Shown piece after piece: positions 24,222-32,522 of a stretch of 32,522 nt of DNA. A program made the translations under genes and the position numbers. The stretch is from Rhizobacter sp. Root1238 (GTDB lineage: Bacteria > Pseudomonadota > Gammaproteobacteria > Burkholderiales > Burkholderiaceae_C). Location of the stretch: contig NZ_LMDM01000031.1 of NCBI RefSeq assembly GCF_001425825.1, positions 1,341-33,862 of the forward strand, written 5' to 3'. The notes under the pieces are model-generated. The model was not told where the DNA came from, ran no database searches, and was given only the letters and a program-made list of their open reading frames with translations. Numbering within the stretch: the stretch's first letter is position 1; every line of letters starts with the position of its first letter.

Positions 24222-24314
24222 GGAGTCGTGACCGAGTGGCCGAAGGTGCTCCCCTGCTAAGGGAGTATGTGGGCAAAACCTGCATCGAGGGTTCGAATCC
24301 CTCCGACTCCGCCA
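24222..24314 (+). tRNA. tRNA-Ser (anticodon GCT), CCA encoded
   Basis: A 93-nt class II tRNA. Acceptor stem GGAGTCG pairs with CGACTCC, discriminator G, encoded CCA at 24312-24314. Anticodon stem CTCCC/GGGAG encloses loop CTGCTAA with GCT at 24256-24258, reading AGC/AGT. A long variable arm and the T-loop GTTCGAATCC are present. Its 3' end is the probable integration site of the element that follows. Confidence 0.97.
24290..24314. other. Candidate attachment site (tRNA 3' end)
   Basis: P4-type integrases next to a tRNA gene normally recombine in the tRNA 3' half. The integrase begins about 190 nt downstream and the tRNA remains intact, so the crossover core is probably in the T-arm/acceptor region. 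The second copy (other end) is not in the window, so the exact core cannot be set. Confidence 0.5.
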
Positions 24315-24320
24315 GGATAG

Positions 24321-24419
24321 TGTTCGGCGAAATTCGCTGAAAGCCGTGAAAGCCCCGCCAAACCTAGGTTTGCGGGGCTTTTTTGTTTCGTCGGTGTTCG
24401 CTGAGCTTCGTTGACAGCC
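24321..24419 (+). repeat. Imperfect 25-bp direct repeats flanking the terminator near the att site
   Basis: Positions 24321-24345 and 24395-24419 share 19 of 25 bases in register, beginning TGTTCG and ending AGCC. They lie between tRNA and integrase, the right place for integrase arm-type binding sites. Confidence 0.45.
24350..24385. terminator. Strong intrinsic terminator after tRNA-Ser
   Basis: AAGCCCCGCCAAACC (24350-24364) pairs with GGTTTGCGGGGCTT (24367-24380) apart from one bulged base, followed by six T (24379-24384). It ends tRNA transcription before the integrase promoter. Confidence 0.92.
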
Positions 24420-24440
24420 AGGCCGTCCCAGGGGAATCAT
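24411..24440 (+). promoter_or_regulatory. Candidate integrase promoter
   Basis: A perfect TTGACA (24411-24416) lies 18 nt before AATCAT (24435-24440, 4 of 6), about 60 nt upstream of the integrase ATG. It overlaps the second direct repeat, so integrase binding could repress its own gene. Confidence 0.5.
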
Positions 24441-24501
24441 TCGGGGCACAAAACAGGTTGTGCCCCTGGCACAGCTCCAAATTCCCCGATTCCCCTCTCT
24501 C

Positions 24502-25722
24502 ATGCCTCTGACCGACCTAGCCTGCAAGAAAGCCACCTGTCCCGACACCAAGGCCCGCGAGCGCTACACCGACTCCGGTGGCCTCTACCTGGAAGTCCTC
24601 CCGAGCGGATCGAAGTACTGGCGTTGGAAGTACTACTTCGCCGGCAAGGAAAAACGCCTTGCCCTTGGAACCTATCCCGATGTCTCGTTGGTGCAAGCCC
24701 GCCTCGACCGCGACAAGGCCCGCGGTGCCCTGAAGGAAGGCGACGACCCGGTTCAACTGCGGAAGGACGCGAAGGCGGCCCGCCGTGTGGCCATTGGCAC
24801 CTCATTCGAGGTGGTGGCCATGAGCTGGTGGGAACACTGGCGCGGCACCCGCAGCCCGCGGCACGCCGACTACGTTTTACGGCGCCTGCAGCTCGATGTG
24901 TTCCCCGAGCTGGGGCGCAAGCCGGTTGCCGACATCCTCGCTCCGCACATCCTTGCCATGGCGAAGAAGATCGAGGCCCGAGGCGCTCTCGACATTGCAA
25001 AACGCTGCTATCAGACCTGCGGCCAGGTGTTTCGCTATGCGATCGCTCACGGCCTGGCCCTCCGCAACCCATGTGCCGACGTGAAGCCGTCGGACGCCCT
25101 CAAGCCGCGCCAGGTCGAGAACTTCGCTCGGCTTCACCTGCGGGACGTGCCGGAGTTGCTTCTCAAGATCGACGCGTACCAAGGTTCGGCATATACGCGC
25201 CTGGCCATGAAGTTGATGACGCTGACGTTCGTGCGTACCACTGAGCTGGTCGAGGTGACGTGGGACGAGATCGACCTGGAACGCGCTGAGTGGCGCATTC
25301 CCGCCGAGCGCATGAAGATGCGCTTCCCGCACATCGTGCCGCTGTCTCGTCAGGCTATCGAAGTCATCCGCACACTGGAACAGCTTCGCAACCGAAGCCC
25401 GTACGTGTTCCCTGGCGAGCGCGACCACGAGAAGCCAATGAGCAATAACACGATCCTGACCGCGCTCAAGCGGATGGGGTACGCGGGGCGGATGACCGGT
25501 CATGGCTTCCGAAGCATCGCCTCCACCGCGCTCAGCGAATGGAAGTTTCCGGAAAAGATCGTTGAGCCGCAGCTGGCGCACATGAAGCGCAATCAGGTGG
25601 CTGCGATCTACAACACGGCGGAGTACCTCACAGAGCGAGCCGAAATGATGCAGTGGTACGCCGATTACATCGATTCAATCCGCCAAGGCGGACCCGTGCT
25701 GCCCGTCAAAAAGGCAGCGTAA
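24502..25722 (+). CDS. int: P4-type tyrosine site-specific integrase
   Basis: A 406-aa integrase. Residues 1-85 form the DUF4102 arm-binding domain (YTDSGGLYLEVLPSGSKYWRWKYY, KRLALGTYPDVSLVQAR). The core-binding part spans about 100-205 and the catalytic domain about 215-390, with Arg245 (FVRTTE), Lys near 272, His334 and Arg337 (HGFRS), His360 (LAHMKRN) and the nucleophile Tyr370 (IYNTAEY). All key residues are present, so it is probably active. I use ATG 24502, which gives the common MPLTD start; a GTG 42 nt earlier only adds unmatched residues. It points away from the tRNA. No excisionase next to it; the AlpA-like gene further on may fill that role. Confidence 0.95.
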   Translation: MPLTDLACKKATCPDTKARERYTDSGGLYLEVLPSGSKYWRWKYYFAGKEKRLALGTYPDVSLVQARLDRDKARGALKEGDDPVQLRKDAKAARRVAIGTSFEVVAMSWWEHWRGTRSPRHADYVLRRLQLDVFPELGRKPVADILAPHILAMAKKIEARGALDIAKRCYQTCGQVFRYAIAHGLALRNPCADVKPSDALKPRQVENFARLHLRDVPELLLKIDAYQGSAYTRLAMKLMTLTFVRTTELVEVTWDEIDLERAEWRIPAERMKMRFPHIVPLSRQAIEVIRTLEQLRNRSPYVFPGERDHEKPMSNNTILTALKRMGYAGRMTGHGFRSIASTALSEWKFPEKIVEPQLAHMKRNQVAAIYNTAEYLTERAEMMQWYADYIDSIRQGGPVLPVKKAA

Positions 25723-25730
25723 AAGCGGAA

Positions 25731-25756
25731 AGGCCAGGTGCGTCAACACCCGGCCT
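25731..25756 (+). terminator. Hairpin after the integrase
   Basis: AGGCC-A-GGTG and CACC-C-GGCCT pair as a 9-bp stem with one A-C mismatch and a 6-nt loop, 9 nt after the stop. It has no T-run, so termination would be weak or Rho-assisted. Confidence 0.5.
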
Positions 25757-25791
25757 CTCCTAACCACAACCCACCTGCTTCAGAGGTGAAT

Positions 25792-25914
25792 ATGGCTATT
25801 TCGAATGATAGCGGCGCAAGCTTGCGCCGCAATGATTGGTTCTCGGGCGCCCTGCCCGGCGTGCACCGGTTCTGCCTGGTGCATGACGTTCGTCACTCCG
25901 CACGGGAGGCCTGA
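25792..25914 (+). CDS. Small unknown protein (40 aa)
   Basis: A short ORF beginning MAISNDSGASLRRNDW. Support: AGAGG 6-7 nt before the ATG, and its TGA lies two bases before the next gene, whose GGGAGG sits in its last codons, a compact coupled arrangement. No family is recognised; the sequence has no obvious membrane segment. A 20-bp perfect palindrome (25811-25830) falls inside it and codes for SGASLRR-like residues. It could be a leader or regulator-binding region rather than a functional protein. Confidence 0.45.
   Translation: MAISNDSGASLRRNDWFSGALPGVHRFCLVHDVRHSAREA
25811..25830. repeat. Perfect 20-bp palindrome
   Basis: GCGGCGCAAG followed directly by CTTGCGCCGC, with no spacer. AATGAT flanks both sides as a direct repeat. 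This is a plausible binding site for a dimeric repressor or for a replication or recombination protein; as RNA it would be a hairpin only with a distorted loop. Confidence 0.75.
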
Positions 25915-25916
25915 CG

Positions 25917-26276
25917 ATGGAACCGTATATCAAGACCCAGCGGCTGTACATGAAGGCGGCCGAGCAGACCAAGTTGCCAGGGATGGCAGTGATGAAGTTC
26001 GCCGAGCTGGTGAACGAGGTCGCGAGCGGCATGCAGGTGCTTTTCTCGATTCGCGAAACGATGTACCTGGACACCACCGTCCACGAGCAGCCATACGCGC
26101 CGCTGCTGTCAGAGCACGACGTGCAGGCGCTCGATCGCATGGCCCGTGCGTCGCTGGAAATGCTCACGAATGAGAGCGTGCAGCTCATGGACTGGGCCTA
26201 CGACCACCACACCACCGAGGGCGTGGAGCGACGCCGATTGCACCGACAGCAAATGCCAAAGGGCGGCGGCGCGTGA
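25917..26276 (+). CDS. Unknown element protein (119 aa)
   Basis: A 119-aa protein that I do not recognise. It looks soluble and mainly helical: MKAAEQTKLPGMAVMKFAELVNEVASGMQVLFSIRE at the N-terminal half, LSEHDVQALDRMARASLEMLTNESVQLMDWAYDHH in the second half, and a basic, Gly-ended tail (RRRLHRQQMPKGGGA). Start supported by GGGAGG 7-8 nt before the ATG. It follows the 40-aa ORF by two bases and precedes the iteron segment, so it sits among the regulation and replication genes of the element. No transmembrane segment or DNA-binding motif is obvious. Confidence 0.75.
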   Translation: MEPYIKTQRLYMKAAEQTKLPGMAVMKFAELVNEVASGMQVLFSIRETMYLDTTVHEQPYAPLLSEHDVQALDRMARASLEMLTNESVQLMDWAYDHHTTEGVERRRLHRQQMPKGGGA

Positions 26277-26283
26277 TTTCCGC

Positions 26284-26396
26284 TGCGGACATGCGGACAA
26301 ACGACGCAAGACCGCTGCAAGCCGCATGAATGCTGGGTTTGCGGCCCGGAAAGGACTGCGGACAAAGGTGCGGACAAAGTGAGGACAGTGCGGACA
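26284..26396 (+). repeat. Six TGCGGACA iterons
   Basis: TGCGGACA occurs at 26284, 26292, 26357, 26369 and 26389, and TGAGGACA at 26380. The first two abut; the last four start 12, 11 and 9 bases apart, close to one helical turn, so they face the same side of the DNA. This is the pattern of initiator-binding iterons; the 994-aa primase-helicase downstream or AlpA is the likely binder. Confidence 0.8.
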
Positions 26397-26463
26397 AGTC
26401 CTCTCTATCTCTTCTCTTTGTTCTCCAGCTTTGTCCTTTCCAGGTCAGCCCTGGCAATGAAAT

Positions 26464-26493
26464 TGTCTCGTCTTGGTGTCTACAGATGAGACA
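26464..26493. promoter_or_regulatory. Dyad symmetry upstream of alpA
   Basis: TGTCTCGTCT (26464-26473) and AGATGAGACA (26484-26493) are complementary over ten positions with a single G-T pair, around a 10-nt loop. It is either an operator or a hairpin in the alpA leader RNA, about 180 nt before alpA. Confidence 0.5.
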
Positions 26494-26675
26494 GCGATTT
26501 GCATCAAATGGCGTCAGCAGTTTTCAGCCCTGACCGAAGCAATTCGCCTGAACGGTAGCGACTGGCGCCGCAACAAGAAAGCGGGCAGCACCGCAGGTGA
26601 ATTGCGCCTGGTCGAGCAAAGCGCGCGCACGTCGAGCGACGTGTGGCCATGTCTCCACCTCAATCCATACGAACC

Positions 26676-26954
26676 ATGAACGCAACCGCACAACGTATTC
26701 CGGGCACTGCAGGCGAGCGCCTGTTGAGGAAGCCCGAGGTCCTGGCCAAGGTTGGCCTGGGGACCACCAGTCTGTATGCACGAATCAAGGAAGGCCGATT
26801 CCCTGCGCCGATCTCGCTCGGCGGGAGCTGCGGCGGCGGCCGAGGCCTCGGAAGGGCTGTCGGCTGGCTCGAGTCGGAGGTCGAAAGTTGGATCGCTGAT
26901 CGCATCGCCGAGTCCCGTGGCCAACAAGCCGGACCGAGGGAGGCGCAGCGCTGA
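26676..26954 (+). CDS. alpA: AlpA-family DNA-binding regulator
   Basis: A 92-aa winged-helix protein of the AlpA / MerR-like type. LLRKPEVLAKVGLGTTSLYARIKEGRFPAPISLG (about 27-60) is the HTH and wing start, and GRAVGWLESEVESWIADRIAESR (about 69-91) the end. Between them is an extra Gly-rich stretch (GSCGGGRGL) that the family normally lacks: usually the wing goes straight from LG to RAVGW. AlpA proteins activate integrase/excision or satellite genes. The ATG at 26676 has no clear ribosome binding site; GTG 26643 or ATG 26649 are alternatives. The stop overlaps the primase ATG by one base (TGATG). Confidence 0.88.
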   Translation: MNATAQRIPGTAGERLLRKPEVLAKVGLGTTSLYARIKEGRFPAPISLGGSCGGGRGLGRAVGWLESEVESWIADRIAESRGQQAGPREAQR

Positions 26955-29938
26955 TGACTGAACGCACCCCGAGAAAGTTCACCCCGCGCCGTGTCGACGT
27001 GGCGGTCATCCGCAGCGCCCTGTCGTTCCTCTCGGCCGACATCGGCCACGACGAGCGCGCACGCATTGCGTTCGCGGTCTACGACGGCGTCGGCGATGCC
27101 GGCGAGGACGCCTGGATGGCGTGGGCCGAGCAGCGGCCAACACCCGATGCCGCCGAGGACCGCGCGACCTGGCGCAGTGCGAAGAAGCCCGGCAAGGTGA
27201 AGGTGGGCACGCTGTTCGGCCTGGCCAAGAAACGCGGCTTCACCTTCCCGGCCGACGACACGCCGCCCGAGCTGCGGCCGACGCCCGCCCAGCTCGAAGC
27301 CGAGGAACAGGAGAGGGCGGCAGCGCGCGCCCTGCAGGAGGCGCAGTACAGAGAGCGGGCGGACCGCGCAGCGGTCGAGGCGAGGCGCCTGTGGGACGCC
27401 GCGAGCGTCGAGGGACACAGCCCGTACCTGGTGCACAAGCGCGTGGGCGCGCACGGCGTGCGCTTCCAGCGTGACGGCACGATGCTGGTTCCGCTGCGCA
27501 ACGCGCCGGGCGAGCTGCTGAACGTCCAGCGCATCGCACCGACCAAGCCCTCGAAGGAACAGGAGGACAAAGGCACGGGCGAGAAGATGCTTCTGCCAAG
27601 CGGGCGCAAGTCCGGGCTGTTCCACTGGATCGGCCAGAGGACGGTGCAGACGCCTGTACTGCTGCTGGCCGAGGGCTACGCGACGGCCGCCAGCCTGCAC
27701 GAGGCCACGGGCTATCCGGTGGTGGTCGGATTCGATGCCGGCAACCTGAAGCCGGTTGCGGTCGCGCTGCGCTCGATGTTCCCGAAAGCGCGCATCCTGG
27801 TGTGCGGCGACGATGACGTGCAGACCGAGGCTCGCACTGGTAAAAATCCTGGGCGCAAAGGGGCCTCCGCCGCCGCCCAATCCGCTGCCGCGGACGGCCT
27901 GCCGGCGTTGACGGCATTCCCTGAGGGACTGCCCGAGGCCAAGGGCCTGAAGGACTTCAACGACCTGGCCGTGCACGCCGGCCTGCCGGCTGTTGCTGCC
28001 ATCGTCGAGGCGGCACTGCAGCAGGAGGCGCCGGCCGCTCCGGCCGCGCCTGCAGCTCCTGTCACGGTGGCCGAGGTGCTTGCTGCGTCAGAGGTGCCGG
28101 ACGACGAGCCCGAGGAAGAAGAGGCAGAGGCAGAGCCCGAGGCCGAGCCTGTGAAGGCACCGAGCCCCGACCGCTTCAGCCTGACGGCGAAGGGCGTGTG
28201 GTACATCGCTCGCGACAAAGAGGGCAACGAGAAGCGGCCGGCGTGGGTCTGCTCGCGCCTGGTCGTCGCAGCGCTCACGCGCACTGACGACGGGAACGGC
28301 TGGGGCTACCTCGTGCACTTCGCCGACCCGGACGGCAACGCGAAGTCATGGGCCATGCCGTCCAGCATGCTCGGCGGGGATGGCAACGAGTGGCTGTGCC
28401 GCTTGCGCGACATGGGCCTGGAGGTGTCGCCGGCCCAAGGCACTCGCGCACGGATCGTGCAGTACATCGACTCGCGCCGGCCTGCGGAGCGAGTGACCTG
28501 CACCGACCGGGTGGGCTGGCATGACGGCGTGTACGTGCTGCCCAGCGAATGCATCGGCGAGACGGAAGGCCGCCGCTACGTCTTCCAGAGCGAGGCGGGG
28601 ATGGACGACACCTACCGCAGCGAAGGCTCGTTGGCGCGGTGGCGGGCCAATGTCTCGGAGCCTTGCATCGGCAACTCGCGTCTGATCTTCGCGCTGTGCT
28701 GCGCGTTTGCCGGGCCGATGGCACGTCTGGCCGAGATGGAGAGCGGTGGCTTCCACCTGCGCGGCGACTCCAGCATGGGCAAGACGACCGCGCTGCGCCT
28801 GGCTGCGAGCGTTTGGGGACGGCCGAGCTACATGCAGCGCTGGCGCACCACCGACAACGCGCTGGAGGCCACCGCGGTGCAGCACTGCGACAGCACGCTG
28901 ATCCTCGACGAGTTCGGCCAGCTCGACCCGGACGTGGCGGGGGAGGTCGCCTACATGCTGGCCAACGATCAGGAGAAGGGCCGCGCGACGCGCAACGGCT
29001 TCGCACGCAAGCGGCGCACCTGGCGATTGCTGTTCCTGTCCTCGGGTGAGGTGTCGCTCGCGCAGCACATGGCATCAGCCTCGAAGACGCCGCGCGCGGG
29101 GCAAGAGGTGCGCATGCTCGACATCCCGCTGGACGCCGGCAAGGGCATGGGCGGGATCGAAGAGCTGCACGACTTCAGCGGGCCGGCCGTCATGGCGGAT
29201 GAGCTCGTGACCGCTGCGGCGAAGAGCTATGGCCAGGCTGGGCGCACCTGGCTGGAATGGGCCTGCAAGCACTACGAAGAACTGCCCGCGCGCCTGGCGG
29301 AAATGATCCGACGCTACCGCGACGACTTCGTGCCCGAGGAAGCGGGCGAGCAGGTGCGCCGAGCCGGCGCGCGATTCGCCTTGGTCGCTGCTGCCGGCGA
29401 GCTGGCCACAGAGGCGGGCATCACCGGATGGCCAAAGGGCGAGGCTCACCGGGCGTTGAGCCGTTGCTTCAATGCATGGCTCGAGTCGCGTGGCCACGCC
29501 GGCAACGGTGAGGACCAAGCGATGTGCCGCCAGGTGCGCCGCTTCATGGAACTGCATGGCGCGGCCCGCTTCACCTGGTGGAATCGTGCGGCCGACGATC
29601 ACTCGCCGAACACGCTGATGCGCGCAGGCTTCCGGCGACTGGTCGATGCGGCTGGCAAGCCCATTCGCACGAACTCGGACCATCAACGCGAGTTCGGCGA
29701 ACGCATGCAGCCCGCGGACGGTGAAGGCACGTCCGTTGAGTTCTTCGTGTTGCCGGAAGTGTTCCGCGGCGAGGTCTGTGCGGGCTACGACTACCGCGCT
29801 GTCTGTCGCGTGCTGCTGCAGCGCGGACACCTCGAACCGGGCCATGGCGGTCGCTTCGATCGCAAGGAACGCTTGCCCGGCATCGGGTCGAGCACCTGCT
29901 ATCGGCTGAAGGCCTCGATCTTCGCGGAGGGCCACTGA
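26954..29938 (+). CDS. Toprim-DUF927 fused primase-helicase
   Basis: A 994-aa replication protein. Residues about 10-95 look like the PriCT-type helical domain; 140-345 hold a phage-type Toprim primase domain with LLLAEGYATAASLHEATGYPVVVG (Glu240) and ILVCGDDDVQTE (Asp286-288). An Ala/Pro and acidic linker (about 357-397) leads to a DUF927 ATPase: FHLRGDSSMGKTTALRLAASVWG (Walker A at 604-611) and LILDEFGQLD (Asp652, Glu653). The C-terminal part (about 740-994) may bind DNA. Start ATG 26954 has GGGAGG 10 nt upstream. It probably starts replication of the element at the iterons just upstream. Primase and helicase activity are inferred from the motifs. Confidence 0.9.
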   Translation: MTERTPRKFTPRRVDVAVIRSALSFLSADIGHDERARIAFAVYDGVGDAGEDAWMAWAEQRPTPDAAEDRATWRSAKKPGKVKVGTLFGLAKKRGFTFPADDTPPELRPTPAQLEAEEQERAAARALQEAQYRERADRAAVEARRLWDAASVEGHSPYLVHKRVGAHGVRFQRDGTMLVPLRNAPGELLNVQRIAPTKPSKEQEDKGTGEKMLLPSGRKSGLFHWIGQRTVQTPVLLLAEGYATAASLHEATGYPVVVGFDAGNLKPVAVALRSMFPKARILVCGDDDVQTEARTGKNPGRKGASAAAQSAAADGLPALTAFPEGLPEAKGLKDFNDLAVHAGLPAVAAIVEAALQQEAPAAPAAPAAPVTVAEVLAASEVPDDEPEEEEAEAEPEAEPVKAPSPDRFSLTAKGVWYIARDKEGNEKRPAWVCSRLVVAALTRTDDGNGWGYLVHFADPDGNAKSWAMPSSMLGGDGNEWLCRLRDMGLEVSPAQGTRARIVQYIDSRRPAERVTCTDRVGWHDGVYVLPSECIGETEGRRYVFQSEAGMDDTYRSEGSLARWRANVSEPCIGNSRLIFALCCAFAGPMARLAEMESGGFHLRGDSSMGKTTALRLAASVWGRPSYMQRWRTTDNALEATAVQHCDSTLILDEFGQLDPDVAGEVAYMLANDQEKGRATRNGFARKRRTWRLLFLSSGEVSLAQHMASASKTPRAGQEVRMLDIPLDAGKGMGGIEELHDFSGPAVMADELVTAAAKSYGQAGRTWLEWACKHYEELPARLAEMIRRYRDDFVPEEAGEQVRRAGARFALVAAAGELATEAGITGWPKGEAHRALSRCFNAWLESRGHAGNGEDQAMCRQVRRFMELHGAARFTWWNRAADDHSPNTLMRAGFRRLVDAAGKPIRTNSDHQREFGERMQPADGEGTSVEFFVLPEVFRGEVCAGYDYRAVCRVLLQRGHLEPGHGGRFDRKERLPGIGSSTCYRLKASIFAEGH

Positions 29939-29939
29939 C

Positions 29940-30467
29940 ATGCACATCGCAACTTACGGGGGGATGCCCGAGGTCGACGGCATCGAGATGATGGGCGAGA
30001 TGCTTGCGCACGTGAAGTACGGCGTTCCTCTCTCTCCTCAAAGTGCGTACCGGTGGGAGCACGTCATCGTCACGTCCGTGCGGCGCGGTGAGCCGCTCGA
30101 CACGACGCTGGGCCTGGCGGTGGCGGGCCGTCGCACGGTGCAAAGGCGCCTGCTGCACATGCGTCGCGATGAGCAGCTCATGCATGCGGTTGCGACCGTG
30201 TTGCCCGACCCTGCGCTGTCGACCTGGGCGCGATGCATGGAGCTGGCGCCGCGGCTGCGCACTTTCGTCGACCGTGAATGGCCCGCAGTGCGCACGCAAG
30301 CCGATCCGCGGGACGACTGGCCCGCCTGGAAAGCGCACCTGTTCCGCGCGATGCAGCAGGACCTTGCGTTGCCGCACTCGGCACGTGGCCTCTATGACGT
30401 CGTGCAGCGAGCGCAGGGCTATTCCACACAGAAGCCCGGCACGAAACTGCTCTCACAACAACTTTGA
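29940..30467 (+). CDS. Unknown element protein (175 aa)
   Basis: A 175-aa protein, not recognised. The ATG is one base after the primase stop, with GGAGG 9 nt upstream, so it is coupled to the primase. The sequence is soluble-looking and helical, rich in Arg and Trp: EHVIVTSVRRGEPLDTTLGLA, RRTVQRRLLHMRRDEQLMHAVA, and DDWPAWKAHLFRAMQQDLALP. The RRTVQRRLLHMRRDE region could be a DNA-binding helix-turn-helix, which would fit a regulator or small terminase-like protein, but this is a guess. It sits exactly between replication and capsid genes, and the capsid gene starts 7 nt after its stop. Confidence 0.8.
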   Translation: MHIATYGGMPEVDGIEMMGEMLAHVKYGVPLSPQSAYRWEHVIVTSVRRGEPLDTTLGLAVAGRRTVQRRLLHMRRDEQLMHAVATVLPDPALSTWARCMELAPRLRTFVDREWPAVRTQADPRDDWPAWKAHLFRAMQQDLALPHSARGLYDVVQRAQGYSTQKPGTKLLSQQL

Positions 30468-30474
30468 AATCACC

Positions 30475-32463
30475 ATGCAAACGATCCACATCTTTGGCGA
30501 AATCGGTACCGAAGTGACTGCGGATTTCATCCGTCAGGAACTGGACCTCTTCAAGGACCAGCCCGTGCTGGTGCGCATCAACTCGGAAGGCGGCGCCGTG
30601 TACGACGGCATCGCGATCTATGAGTTGCTGCGCGCTCATCCGTCGCACGTCACGGTCGAGATCACCGGCTGGGCGCTGTCTATTGCCAGCGTCATCGCGA
30701 TGGGTGGTCGCAAGGTCATCATCGCGCCGTCCGGCCTGATGATGGTCCACAACCCGTGGAGCACCACCAGTGGCAACGCGACCGACCTGCGTCGCACGGC
30801 CGACAAGCTCGACCTGGTGCGTGACACGCTCATCACGGCCTATCGGCGCACCGGCCAGGCCGACGACAAGCTGCGAGCCTGGCTCGATGCGGAGACCTGG
30901 TTCGACGCCGAGCAAGCGAAGGCGGCCGGCCTGGTCGACGAGATCGCCGACGACTCCTACGACGAGCGGCCCTCCAACGCGCGTGCCTGCGCCTTCTCCA
31001 TTCCGGACAAGTACAAGCTGCGCCGACCTGCGCTCGCCAATCTGCACCTGCCGCCCCAAAGCCGGCATACGGTCACCCGAGCACCCGAGTCGGCCCCGCT
31101 CGCGTCCGCTGCCGGCGCCCCCGTCAGTGACTATGCCCTGTCGATTCGCAACGAAGCGGACACAGCCCGGATCGTGGACATGTTCGAGCGACATATTCTC
31201 AGAGCGCCGGACAGCGCGGGCGAGATGGGCAAGTTGATGTTCCAGTGCCTGGCCAACAAGCGGATGACACCAGCCGAGGCGGGCGAGCGCATCCTGAACA
31301 AGATGGGCGAGGGCGCGTTCTCGGTCGGCGCAATGGCGTACGTGGACGACCGCGGGCAGACCGTGTGGGCAGGTTCCAGCAGCAGCGGCCCCAGCACGAT
31401 GCACGAATTCAAGGCCGCTGCCTCTGACGTGCTGCTGGCGCGCGCAGGCGTGCCGGTGGAGAACCCGCACCCGGCCTCGCGTGACCTGCAGCGCCTGACG
31501 ATGCTCGCGATGGCAGAGAAGGTGCTCTCGATGGCGGGCATCTCGACGTACCGCAAGAGCCAGAACGAGATCATCAAGGCCGCCATGAGCACCTCGGACT
31601 TCCCCGAGCTGCTGGCCAACACGACGGGCCGCGCGCTGCGTGCCGGCTACGAGAACGCGCAGGCCACGCACGCGGTGTGGACCGCCGAGCGCGAGGTGCC
31701 GGACTTCAAGCCGCAAACCCTGGTGTCGCTGTCCGAGGCGCCGGGCCTGGACAAGGTGCTGGAGCTGGCCAACTACACCTACGGCAGCTTCGCCGAGTCG
31801 GCCGAATCGTTCCGCATCGAGACCTTCGGAAAGATCGTCAAGATCTCGCGTCAGGCGCTCATCAATGACGACCTGGACGCCTTCACGCGCATCCCGCAGG
31901 CCTACGGTGCTTCCGCGCGCCGCCTCGAAGCCGACAGCGTGTATGCCAAGCTGACGGGCAGCACGCGACTGCGCGATGATCTGCCGCTGTTCCACGCGAA
32001 GCATGGCAACCTGGCCGTCGCAGGTGCCGCGCTGTCTGCCGAGACGCTGGGCATTGCACGGGCCGCCATGCGCAAGCAGAAGGGACTGCAGGGGCTGGGG
32101 TACTTCGATCCGCAACCGCGCTTCCTGATCGTGCCGGTGTCGCTGGAGACGAAGGCAGAGCAGCTGCTGGCCAGCCTGGTCGATCCGGGCATGGCGAACA
32201 ACACTGGCAACCCGGAGTGGATTCGTCGCCTGGTGCTGGTCTCCGATCCGCGCCTCGATGAAGTCTCCGAAGCGGCGTGGTACCTCGCTGCGGACCCGAC
32301 CCAGCACGACACCATCGTGCGCGCCTACCTGGCCGGCGAGCCGCGCCCGTACCTCGAAGAAGACGAGGAATTCGAGCGCGACGCCGTGGCACACAAGTGC
32401 CGGCTGGACTTCGGTGTGGGCGTGATCGACTACCGCGGGCTGTACAAGAACCCGGGCAAGTAA
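30475..32463 (+). CDS. ClpP-type prohead protease fused to Mu gpT-like major capsid protein
   Basis: A 662-aa fusion. Residues 1-190 are a ClpP-fold head-maturation protease: [22 protein letters not shown], the nucleophile Ser69 in GWALSIAS, His92 in MMVHNP, and [19 protein letters not shown] linker of low complexity (about 190-225) leads to a capsid part (about 285-662) like the Mu gpT head protein: [70 protein letters not shown] and a C-terminal [18 protein letters not shown]. Such protease-capsid fusions are known in phages; the protease frees the capsid protein and scaffold part during assembly. Both halves look intact. There is no strong ribosome binding site, so coupling to the previous gene is likely. 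Confidence 0.93.
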
Positions 32464-32522
32464 AGAGGCAAGACAGGCGGCGGGCGAGAAGTTGGCCATA
32501 GCCCGCGGCCTGAGCGTTCGGC
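32464..32522 (+). other. Start of the next intergenic region or gene, cut by the edge
   Basis: 59 bases follow the capsid gene. A TTG at 32492 opens a short frame to the edge, after GGGCGAGA; a start there cannot be confirmed. No terminator is seen, so the capsid operon probably continues. Confidence 0.4.

Follow-up and report, generated by a model that had tools for sequence, protein, structure and literature searches.

The satellite P4 combines an AlpA-like regulator, a primase-helicase, two iteron regions and tRNA-type integration, and it resizes P2 heads with Sid and is not known to carry a capsid gene. Capsid-forming phage-inducible chromosomal islands (cf-PICIs) carry, besides capsid, genes for the small and large terminase subunits (TerS and TerL), portal and head-tail adaptors. 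In SaPIbov5, the capsid-like protein Ccm is not known to have a fused protease. Here we examine E1, an integrated element that begins within the window, a 32,522-nucleotide stretch (C31:1341-33862) of the 6.5-Mb draft genome of Rhizobacter sp. Root1238, and that carries a gene fusing a prohead protease to a major capsid protein. Judged from its gene content, E1 is almost certainly a phage satellite and not a prophage, and it fits the plan of the Gram-negative phage-inducible chromosomal islands (PICIs), where capsid genes are already known.

Many Gram-negative PICIs have a capsid gene but neither portal nor terminase. A late-zone capsid gene is present in 21 of 29 reference elements (PMC10111431). 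The Gram-negative set of 2018 came from Gammaproteobacteria, mostly Enterobacteriaceae and Pasteurellaceae (PMC6092414). The capsids of cf-PICIs fall into three clades apart from phages (PMC11389934), and Ccm, a homologue of a capsid protein, occupies the pentamers of heads that are T=4 (PMC8569155). New in this work are a lineage from Burkholderiales, a capsid clade rich in satellites, and a small protein without family or fold match, encoded before the capsid gene, which we name Pcp. Among the matches listed in a literature search of titles and abstract starts, with subscription papers mostly outside it, there was no such Burkholderiales satellite and no Pcp.

Results

Bounds and gene content of E1

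E1 follows directly on tRNA-Ser(GCT) (24222..24314, + strand), whose end holds the attL core CCTCCGACTCCGCCA at 24300-24314, and it spans window position 24315 to C31:36057. Its right end lies beyond the window, where the same 15-bp core, CCTCCGACTCCGCCA, recurs as attR (L009:3044-3058 = C31:36043-36057); none of 5000 random 120-bp stretches from window 1-24120 shared a 15-mer with the right part. The element measures 10,403 bp as assembled and about 10,258 bp minus a duplicated join. The first-pass annotation covered 24315-32522, short of the right end, and had proposed reading rightward to a second copy of the tRNA 3′ end. Over the 4.7 kb by which C31 continues (L009), repeats and a 317-aa open reading frame (ORF) lead to attR and then to another element, so that E1 closes at about 10.26 kb with no further phage structural gene recognised.

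No portal, terminase, lysis or tail gene was recognised among the longer ORFs scanned up to attR, and our own portal and TerL models, built from two phages of the lambda type and blind to other families, matched nothing in E1 or in E2, its second copy in the same genome. What had been remarked for the window, that such genes are not seen, holds to attR. A complete temperate phage was rejected on this ground, and the annotation's alternative, a prophage with packaging genes further right, was rejected from the sequence to attR and from the relatives.

The window ends in a single N with 127-128 bp duplicated on both sides (window 32395-32522, L009:864-1008), and a single-N join with duplication is present in both C31 and C5, the contig of E2 (L010:12154). 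We read the N with its flanking duplication as an assembly join. In a remnant in the sister genome G212, the capsid end continues without N into the same downstream sequence; nothing is therefore hidden there in that relative, and the idea of terminase or portal genes concealed at the N was dropped.

From int to the capsid fusion all genes lie on the + strand, and family scans agree with the order first read from the sequence. The tyrosine integrase (24460..25722; Arm-DNA-bind_3, Phage_int_M, Phage_integrase; likely start MPLTDLACKK near 24502) is followed by small ORFs, one of them (25917..26276, +) without family match, and by an iteron-like array with the 8-bp unit TGCGGACA (26284..26396). 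Then come an AlpA-like regulator or excisionase (26643..26954; PF05930 1e-12, phrog_66 4e-10), a primase-helicase (26954..29938; PriCT-2, Toprim, DUF927), Pcp (29940..30467), a conserved helical protein of 175 aa directly 5′ of the capsid gene, and the ClpP-type prohead protease/major capsid fusion (30475..32463; PF25209 1.4e-54, CLP_protease 1.9e-31, NCBIfam NF045540 551 bits against a cut-off of 475). A second iteron array, inverted (TGTCCGCA), lies outside the window at L009:1591-1897; one array precedes alpA, and the other follows the late zone. The right end is a cargo slot, holding in E2 a HEPN-like gene (5.8e-9) and in E1 a PDC-S60-like gene, the 317-aa ORF, a candidate defence gene with a partial match to PDC-S60 (2.6e-28, 176 of 906 profile positions) and a sub-threshold match to DUF4062 (0.0015). 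To the right of attR, L009:3187-5459 holds integrase fragments spread over several frames (DUF6538, Phage_integrase), together with an ORF that matches PDC-M34A; this stretch is probably a tandem element.

The capsid fusion and the second copy

The capsid gene belongs to a family of ClpP-capsid fusions found in lambda-like siphophages, among them MD8 and Ayreon. The Mu gpT-like type to which it had been assigned gave a weak match (3.3e-5), and we abandoned that assignment. The best matches in phage collections are about 35% identical. In a tree with 37 phage representatives (from 148 portal-linked sequences, thinned at 80%), seven of eight satellite capsid fusions form one clade (98/96) apart from the phages; the sequences of G1126 and the viral contig L117 are long branches whose placement is unsure.

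E2 lies on C5 at tRNA-Ser(CGA) and has the gene order of E1. Amino acid identity between the copies is 90% for the capsid fusion (95% in its capsid part), 74% for the primase, 72% for the integrase and 62% for Pcp. For the capsid fusion dN/dS is 0.157, with 0.084 in its capsid part (last 127 bp excluded), which indicates that the capsid gene is under purifying selection; the integrase gives 0.185, at a nearly saturated dS of 1.2, and Pcp gives 0.386. Both copies have two inverted iteron arrays, mostly of TGCGGACA in E1 and with many TGAGGACA/TGTCCTCA in both arrays of E2. For E2 we could locate no right att site, but the element must end between L010 13891 and approximately 14972. Just past the E2 integrase, at L010:5321-5398 (-), there is a PtaRNA1 (RF01811) antitoxin-type antisense RNA, whose 47.3 bits just exceed the gathering score of 47.

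We searched 11 genomes of the genus at both tRNA sites, with flanks fetched for some. The lysC site of the sister genome G400 (L229) holds a decayed E1 relative, with a capsid fragment, a 90% identical repeat region and an attR-like end; the gene in its cargo slot differs from that of E1. At tRNA-Ser(CGA) of the same genome (L228), about 5.3 kb with integrase-like and lysis-like ORFs, named by eye, lies between two copies of a 57-bp tRNA end. Gram-negative PICIs use attachment sites that prophages of the species leave free, and this different, prophage-like remnant speaks against that for the site of E2.

Relatives in other genomes and viral contigs

Searches of the family, order and class score few candidates per genome (three in the family and order capsid searches), and the counts are therefore lower bounds. 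The capsid is matched at 1e-40 in at least 19 of 399 family genomes; in the order-level search of 399 genomes only the window's own genome matched at 1e-90 among the candidates scored. Identity to the E1 capsid is 53% in G131, 52% in G262 and 77% in the broken C-terminal piece in G212. The layout of E1 is shared by E2 and, in other genomes, by G355, G262, G917, G131 and G1126. In G262, a single-contig genome, int, a Toprim primase, a DUF3987 helicase, an HTH protein, Pcp and the ClpP-capsid gene are followed by host selD, and imperfect att-like copies of 13-14 bp delimit the element at 10.07 kb. The element of G355, like E1, sits at lysC/tRNA-Ser(GCT); it has an integrase of the same type (5.6e-148), a TerS-like gene, Pcp and a protease-capsid gene, with no N in the stretch and an att repeat of only 13 bp; Pcp and a protease-capsid gene likewise occur in G230 and G046, all three from the family capsid list.

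Exact direct repeats of 25-58 bp, mostly tRNA ends, bracket seven elements of 8.7-13.1 kb. These are G917 (58 bp, tRNA end; 9,706 bp), G131 (38 bp, tRNA end; 9,492 bp), G1126 (49 bp, tRNA end; 11,217 bp), G1068 (48 bp; 13,094 bp), G827 (58 bp; 10,280 bp), G106 (47 bp; 8,735 bp) and G1019 (25 bp, no tRNA found; 9,487 bp). G230 showed no bracketing direct repeat in the stretch tried, and the bounds analysis left out G245, G1055, G459, G046, G846, G986 and G1113. Because same-layout relatives recur in other bacteria, E1 appears to belong to a real satellite lineage rather than being a broken virus.

Two viral contigs extend this picture. L117, of 10,492 bp, has a 141-bp end repeat and is therefore read as circular, at 10,351 bp; it carries int, RecT, Pcp (9.7e-5 in a pooled search, 4.5e-7 alone), a ClpP-capsid gene and, by eye, a tape-measure-like gene across the ends. 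L377, of 9,145 bp, has a 3.5-kb head module 97% identical to that of G917, but its integrase is another one and its TerS-like gene has diverged; a unit of exchange thereby becomes visible. Among the 101 further loci from the viral-contig searches, Pcp was found in L377 only, and scans of viral contigs with unfused capsids gave nothing useful.

Several relatives carry further virion genes. TerS-like genes (phrog_57) occur in G245, G106 and G917, weakly in G262 (0.12), and in G355 and G230 through their match to those. Tape-measure genes occur in G1019 (phrog_24, 1.2e-24) and G1068 (phrog_2854, 7e-88), a central tail fibre J gene in G827 (1.2e-77) and a tail-completion gene in G917 (phrog_27, 5e-20). 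Pcp elements with tail-tip J or tape-measure genes are those at L272, L273 and L275. Satellites of this kind may thus swap tail parts as well.

Pcp and its loci

Pcp has no Pfam, PHROG or NCBIfam match at 0.001. It is predicted to be helical (AF2 pLDDT 84.3 for E1 and 87.9 for the G917 homologue), and fold searches at 0.001 returned nothing in PDB for both models or in BFVD for the E1 model. It was not found in phage and plasmid collections or in the available stretch of EcCICFT073 (best E 0.31), and a Pcp alignment search of viral contigs gave no relative. A four-member profile detected it in at least 6 of 399 family genomes (G106, G387 and G245 being new and the other three seed genomes), a six-member profile in at least 8 of 303 (the own genome and seven further ones, from seven other families of the class), and a 13-member profile in at least 4 of 398 (the own genome and three new ones).

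Together there are 22 Pcp loci including E1, with a capsid gene in 18, on Pcp's strand in 17. This count is partly biased, because nine of the loci either belong to the window's genome (two) or came from searches with the capsid; in the 13 loci found via Pcp, nine have a capsid gene, eight of them on the same strand. It was identified by model or sequence match in G245, G106, G917, G1019, G986, G1055, G459 and G1126, and by eye in G1068, whose gpE-like capsid, protease and decoration genes were all so named. The layout of G986 differs, with Pcp on one strand and capsid and TerL on the other. No capsid gene was seen beside Pcp in G387 (a lone gene), G827 (TerS and tail-tip J), G846 (TerL phrog_38, detected by PHROGs only) or G1113. 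The capsids beside Pcp are of several kinds, namely ClpP fusions, other protease fusions (G355, G230, G046), unfused PF25209 relatives (G245, G1019, G1055, G459) and the HK97 type (G106, PF05065 6.9e-35; G986 by match to G106).

Our portal model matched none of the 22 Pcp loci, and our TerL model matched G986 only; of the 202 loci retrieved for a related capsid or protease gene, some of which overlap or are short, 150 gave a hit with the portal model. Besides Pcp loci, the portal-negative loci with at least 4 kb upstream are L052 and L153, which TerL adjoins, L124, L096 and L106, judged by eye to be phage-like or laden with transposons, and L239, which is the cellular ClpP. Terminase and portal Pfam families were absent at 1e-4 from 71 proteins chosen from eight elements (27 from L377, L117 and G1126; 44 from G355, G230, G917, G262 and G131, the last minus its integrase). 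The families found in that scan were capsid, Clp protease, integrase, AlpA, primase-type, RecT and cargo, and a minor-tail-Z match in two elements corresponds to the G917/L377 module. Two further places in the window's genome were considered as satellites and set aside: an integrase region on C24 has no capsid gene, and a ClpP gene on C4 is the housekeeping one, from clpX/lon-like neighbours judged by eye.

Discussion

We favor, with a probability of roughly 0.55, the interpretation that E1 is a satellite on the Gram-negative PICI plan that builds its own shell and borrows the portal, motor and tail of a helper. A helper phage would switch on AlpA, Int and AlpA would excise the element, and its replication by the primase would start at the iterons. 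Around a helper portal, the protease/capsid fusion would then form the element's own head, with Pcp assisting head assembly or linking the shell to parts of the helper. Filling this head would fall to the large terminase of the helper, guided by the satellite TerS in relatives that have one, and a helper tail would be attached to the filled head.

Several observations weigh against this interpretation. TerS was not recognised in E1. No resident helper was found in the window's genome, as the phrog_2 and GpA TerL models were negative, other TerL families not having been tried, and the idea of a resident helper was dropped. The satellite capsid of G1126 falls outside the clade. Pcp also occurs in the TerL-bearing loci G846 and G986, and in G1113 on an 18.2-kb plasmid-like contig with no capsid gene seen (L284, G1113:C3; ParA-like, coiled-coil and retropepsin-like ORFs were noted there by eye). 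Conversely, capsid loci without portal exist that have no Pcp (L052, L096, L106, L124, L153). Finally, in the model Gram-negative PICI EcCICFT073, phage growth was not restored by deleting c1499, its capsid gene (PMC6092414), so that this capsid does not explain interference, and PICI capsid genes are stated to be unnecessary for transfer (PMC10111431).

These last two reports would suit a capsid that is a passenger dispensable for transfer, or one that mainly poisons helper assembly; in EcCICFT073 interference remained intact without the gene. We consider this unlikely, given the purifying selection, which is most marked in the capsid part (dN/dS 0.084), the satellite-rich capsid clade and the recurrent pairing with Pcp in loci found independently of the capsid. 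Somewhat less doubtful, yet still improbable in our judgment, is a resizing role, in which the satellite capsid would join a mostly-helper shell and shrink it. There are precedents in SaPIbov5 Ccm, with its pentamers and T=4 heads (PMC8569155), and in PmCI172, which has a capsid homologue and makes small heads (PMC6092414). But E1 encodes a complete fusion of protease and capsid, whose clade stands apart from sampled phages, and the best matches in phage collections are about 35% identical, so co-assembly would need an unseen close helper.

Two explanations remain. With its alpA, primase and capsid, and with a window that ends at an assembly join, E1 could be taken for a true cf-PICI whose terminase and portal genes were lost or lie in the gap; the G212 remnant, which crosses the join without insert, and the stretches of G355 and G262, with the same content and no N, largely refute this, and we regard it as very improbable. 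An ordinary or decaying prophage, to which the homology of the capsid fusion with phage head genes might point, is less credible than any of these, because several independent elements of 8.7-13.1 kb have precise bounds, open frames are under purifying selection, and one circular form is seen.

A broader proposal, which we hold tentatively and think less probable than self-made heads on helper portals, is that the Pcp-marked elements are a distinct, undescribed satellite family across Pseudomonadota. Its members would swap in one or a few virion parts (shell, tape measure, tail-tip gene) and take the rest from helpers, with Pcp as the common factor fitting the satellite part to the helper virion.

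The lineage is in any case a clean one in which to consider satellite capsids, with protease and capsid in one gene, mostly one clade and a small conserved companion protein. If E1 does assemble a self-made shell on a helper portal, it would offer a simple system for studying the docking of a foreign head to the portal, motor and tail of a phage, and would broaden how satellite finders should search for such elements.

Among described systems, the likeness is greatest to the Gram-negative PICIs. E1 has int, alpA and primase in order on one strand, a late zone with few head genes and no full morphogenesis set, iterons, a capsid without large terminase or portal, cargo genes and a length in the range of about 10-20 kb. 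In Gram-negative PICIs the replication origin lies downstream of the primase and has two sets of iterons flanking an AT-rich region; of the two inverted arrays of E1, one stands before alpA and one after the late zone. The available stretch of EcCICFT073 (left end missing) has primase, SSB, capsid and decoration genes and no annotated portal or terminase; its capsid has no phmmer match to the ClpP-capsid fusion of E1, and E1 differs further in its DUF927 primase and in the Pcp gene before the capsid. The first-pass annotation had suggested a capsid-forming island; the satellite part of that suggestion stands, and E1 resembles cf-PICIs in having its own capsid and head protease, but the TerS/TerL, portal and adaptor genes of cf-PICIs are not recognised in it. 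SaPIbov5 likewise bears a capsid homologue, but is Gram-positive and cos-type, and its Ccm co-assembles with the helper capsid. P4 shares the AlpA-like regulator, primase-helicase, two iteron arrays and tRNA integration, and differs from E1, which has a capsid gene; membership among P4-like satellites was rejected, as the P4 immunity RNA family gave no match at the gathering score and Sid, Psu and Delta had no hit in general family scans. The siphophages MD8, F10, mEp460 and Ayreon have the same ClpP-capsid gene family, but in MD8 and Ayreon the fusion follows TerS, TerL, a gpW-type gene and portal and precedes head and tail genes, whereas in E1 it follows a primase and Pcp, on the plan of a Gram-negative PICI.

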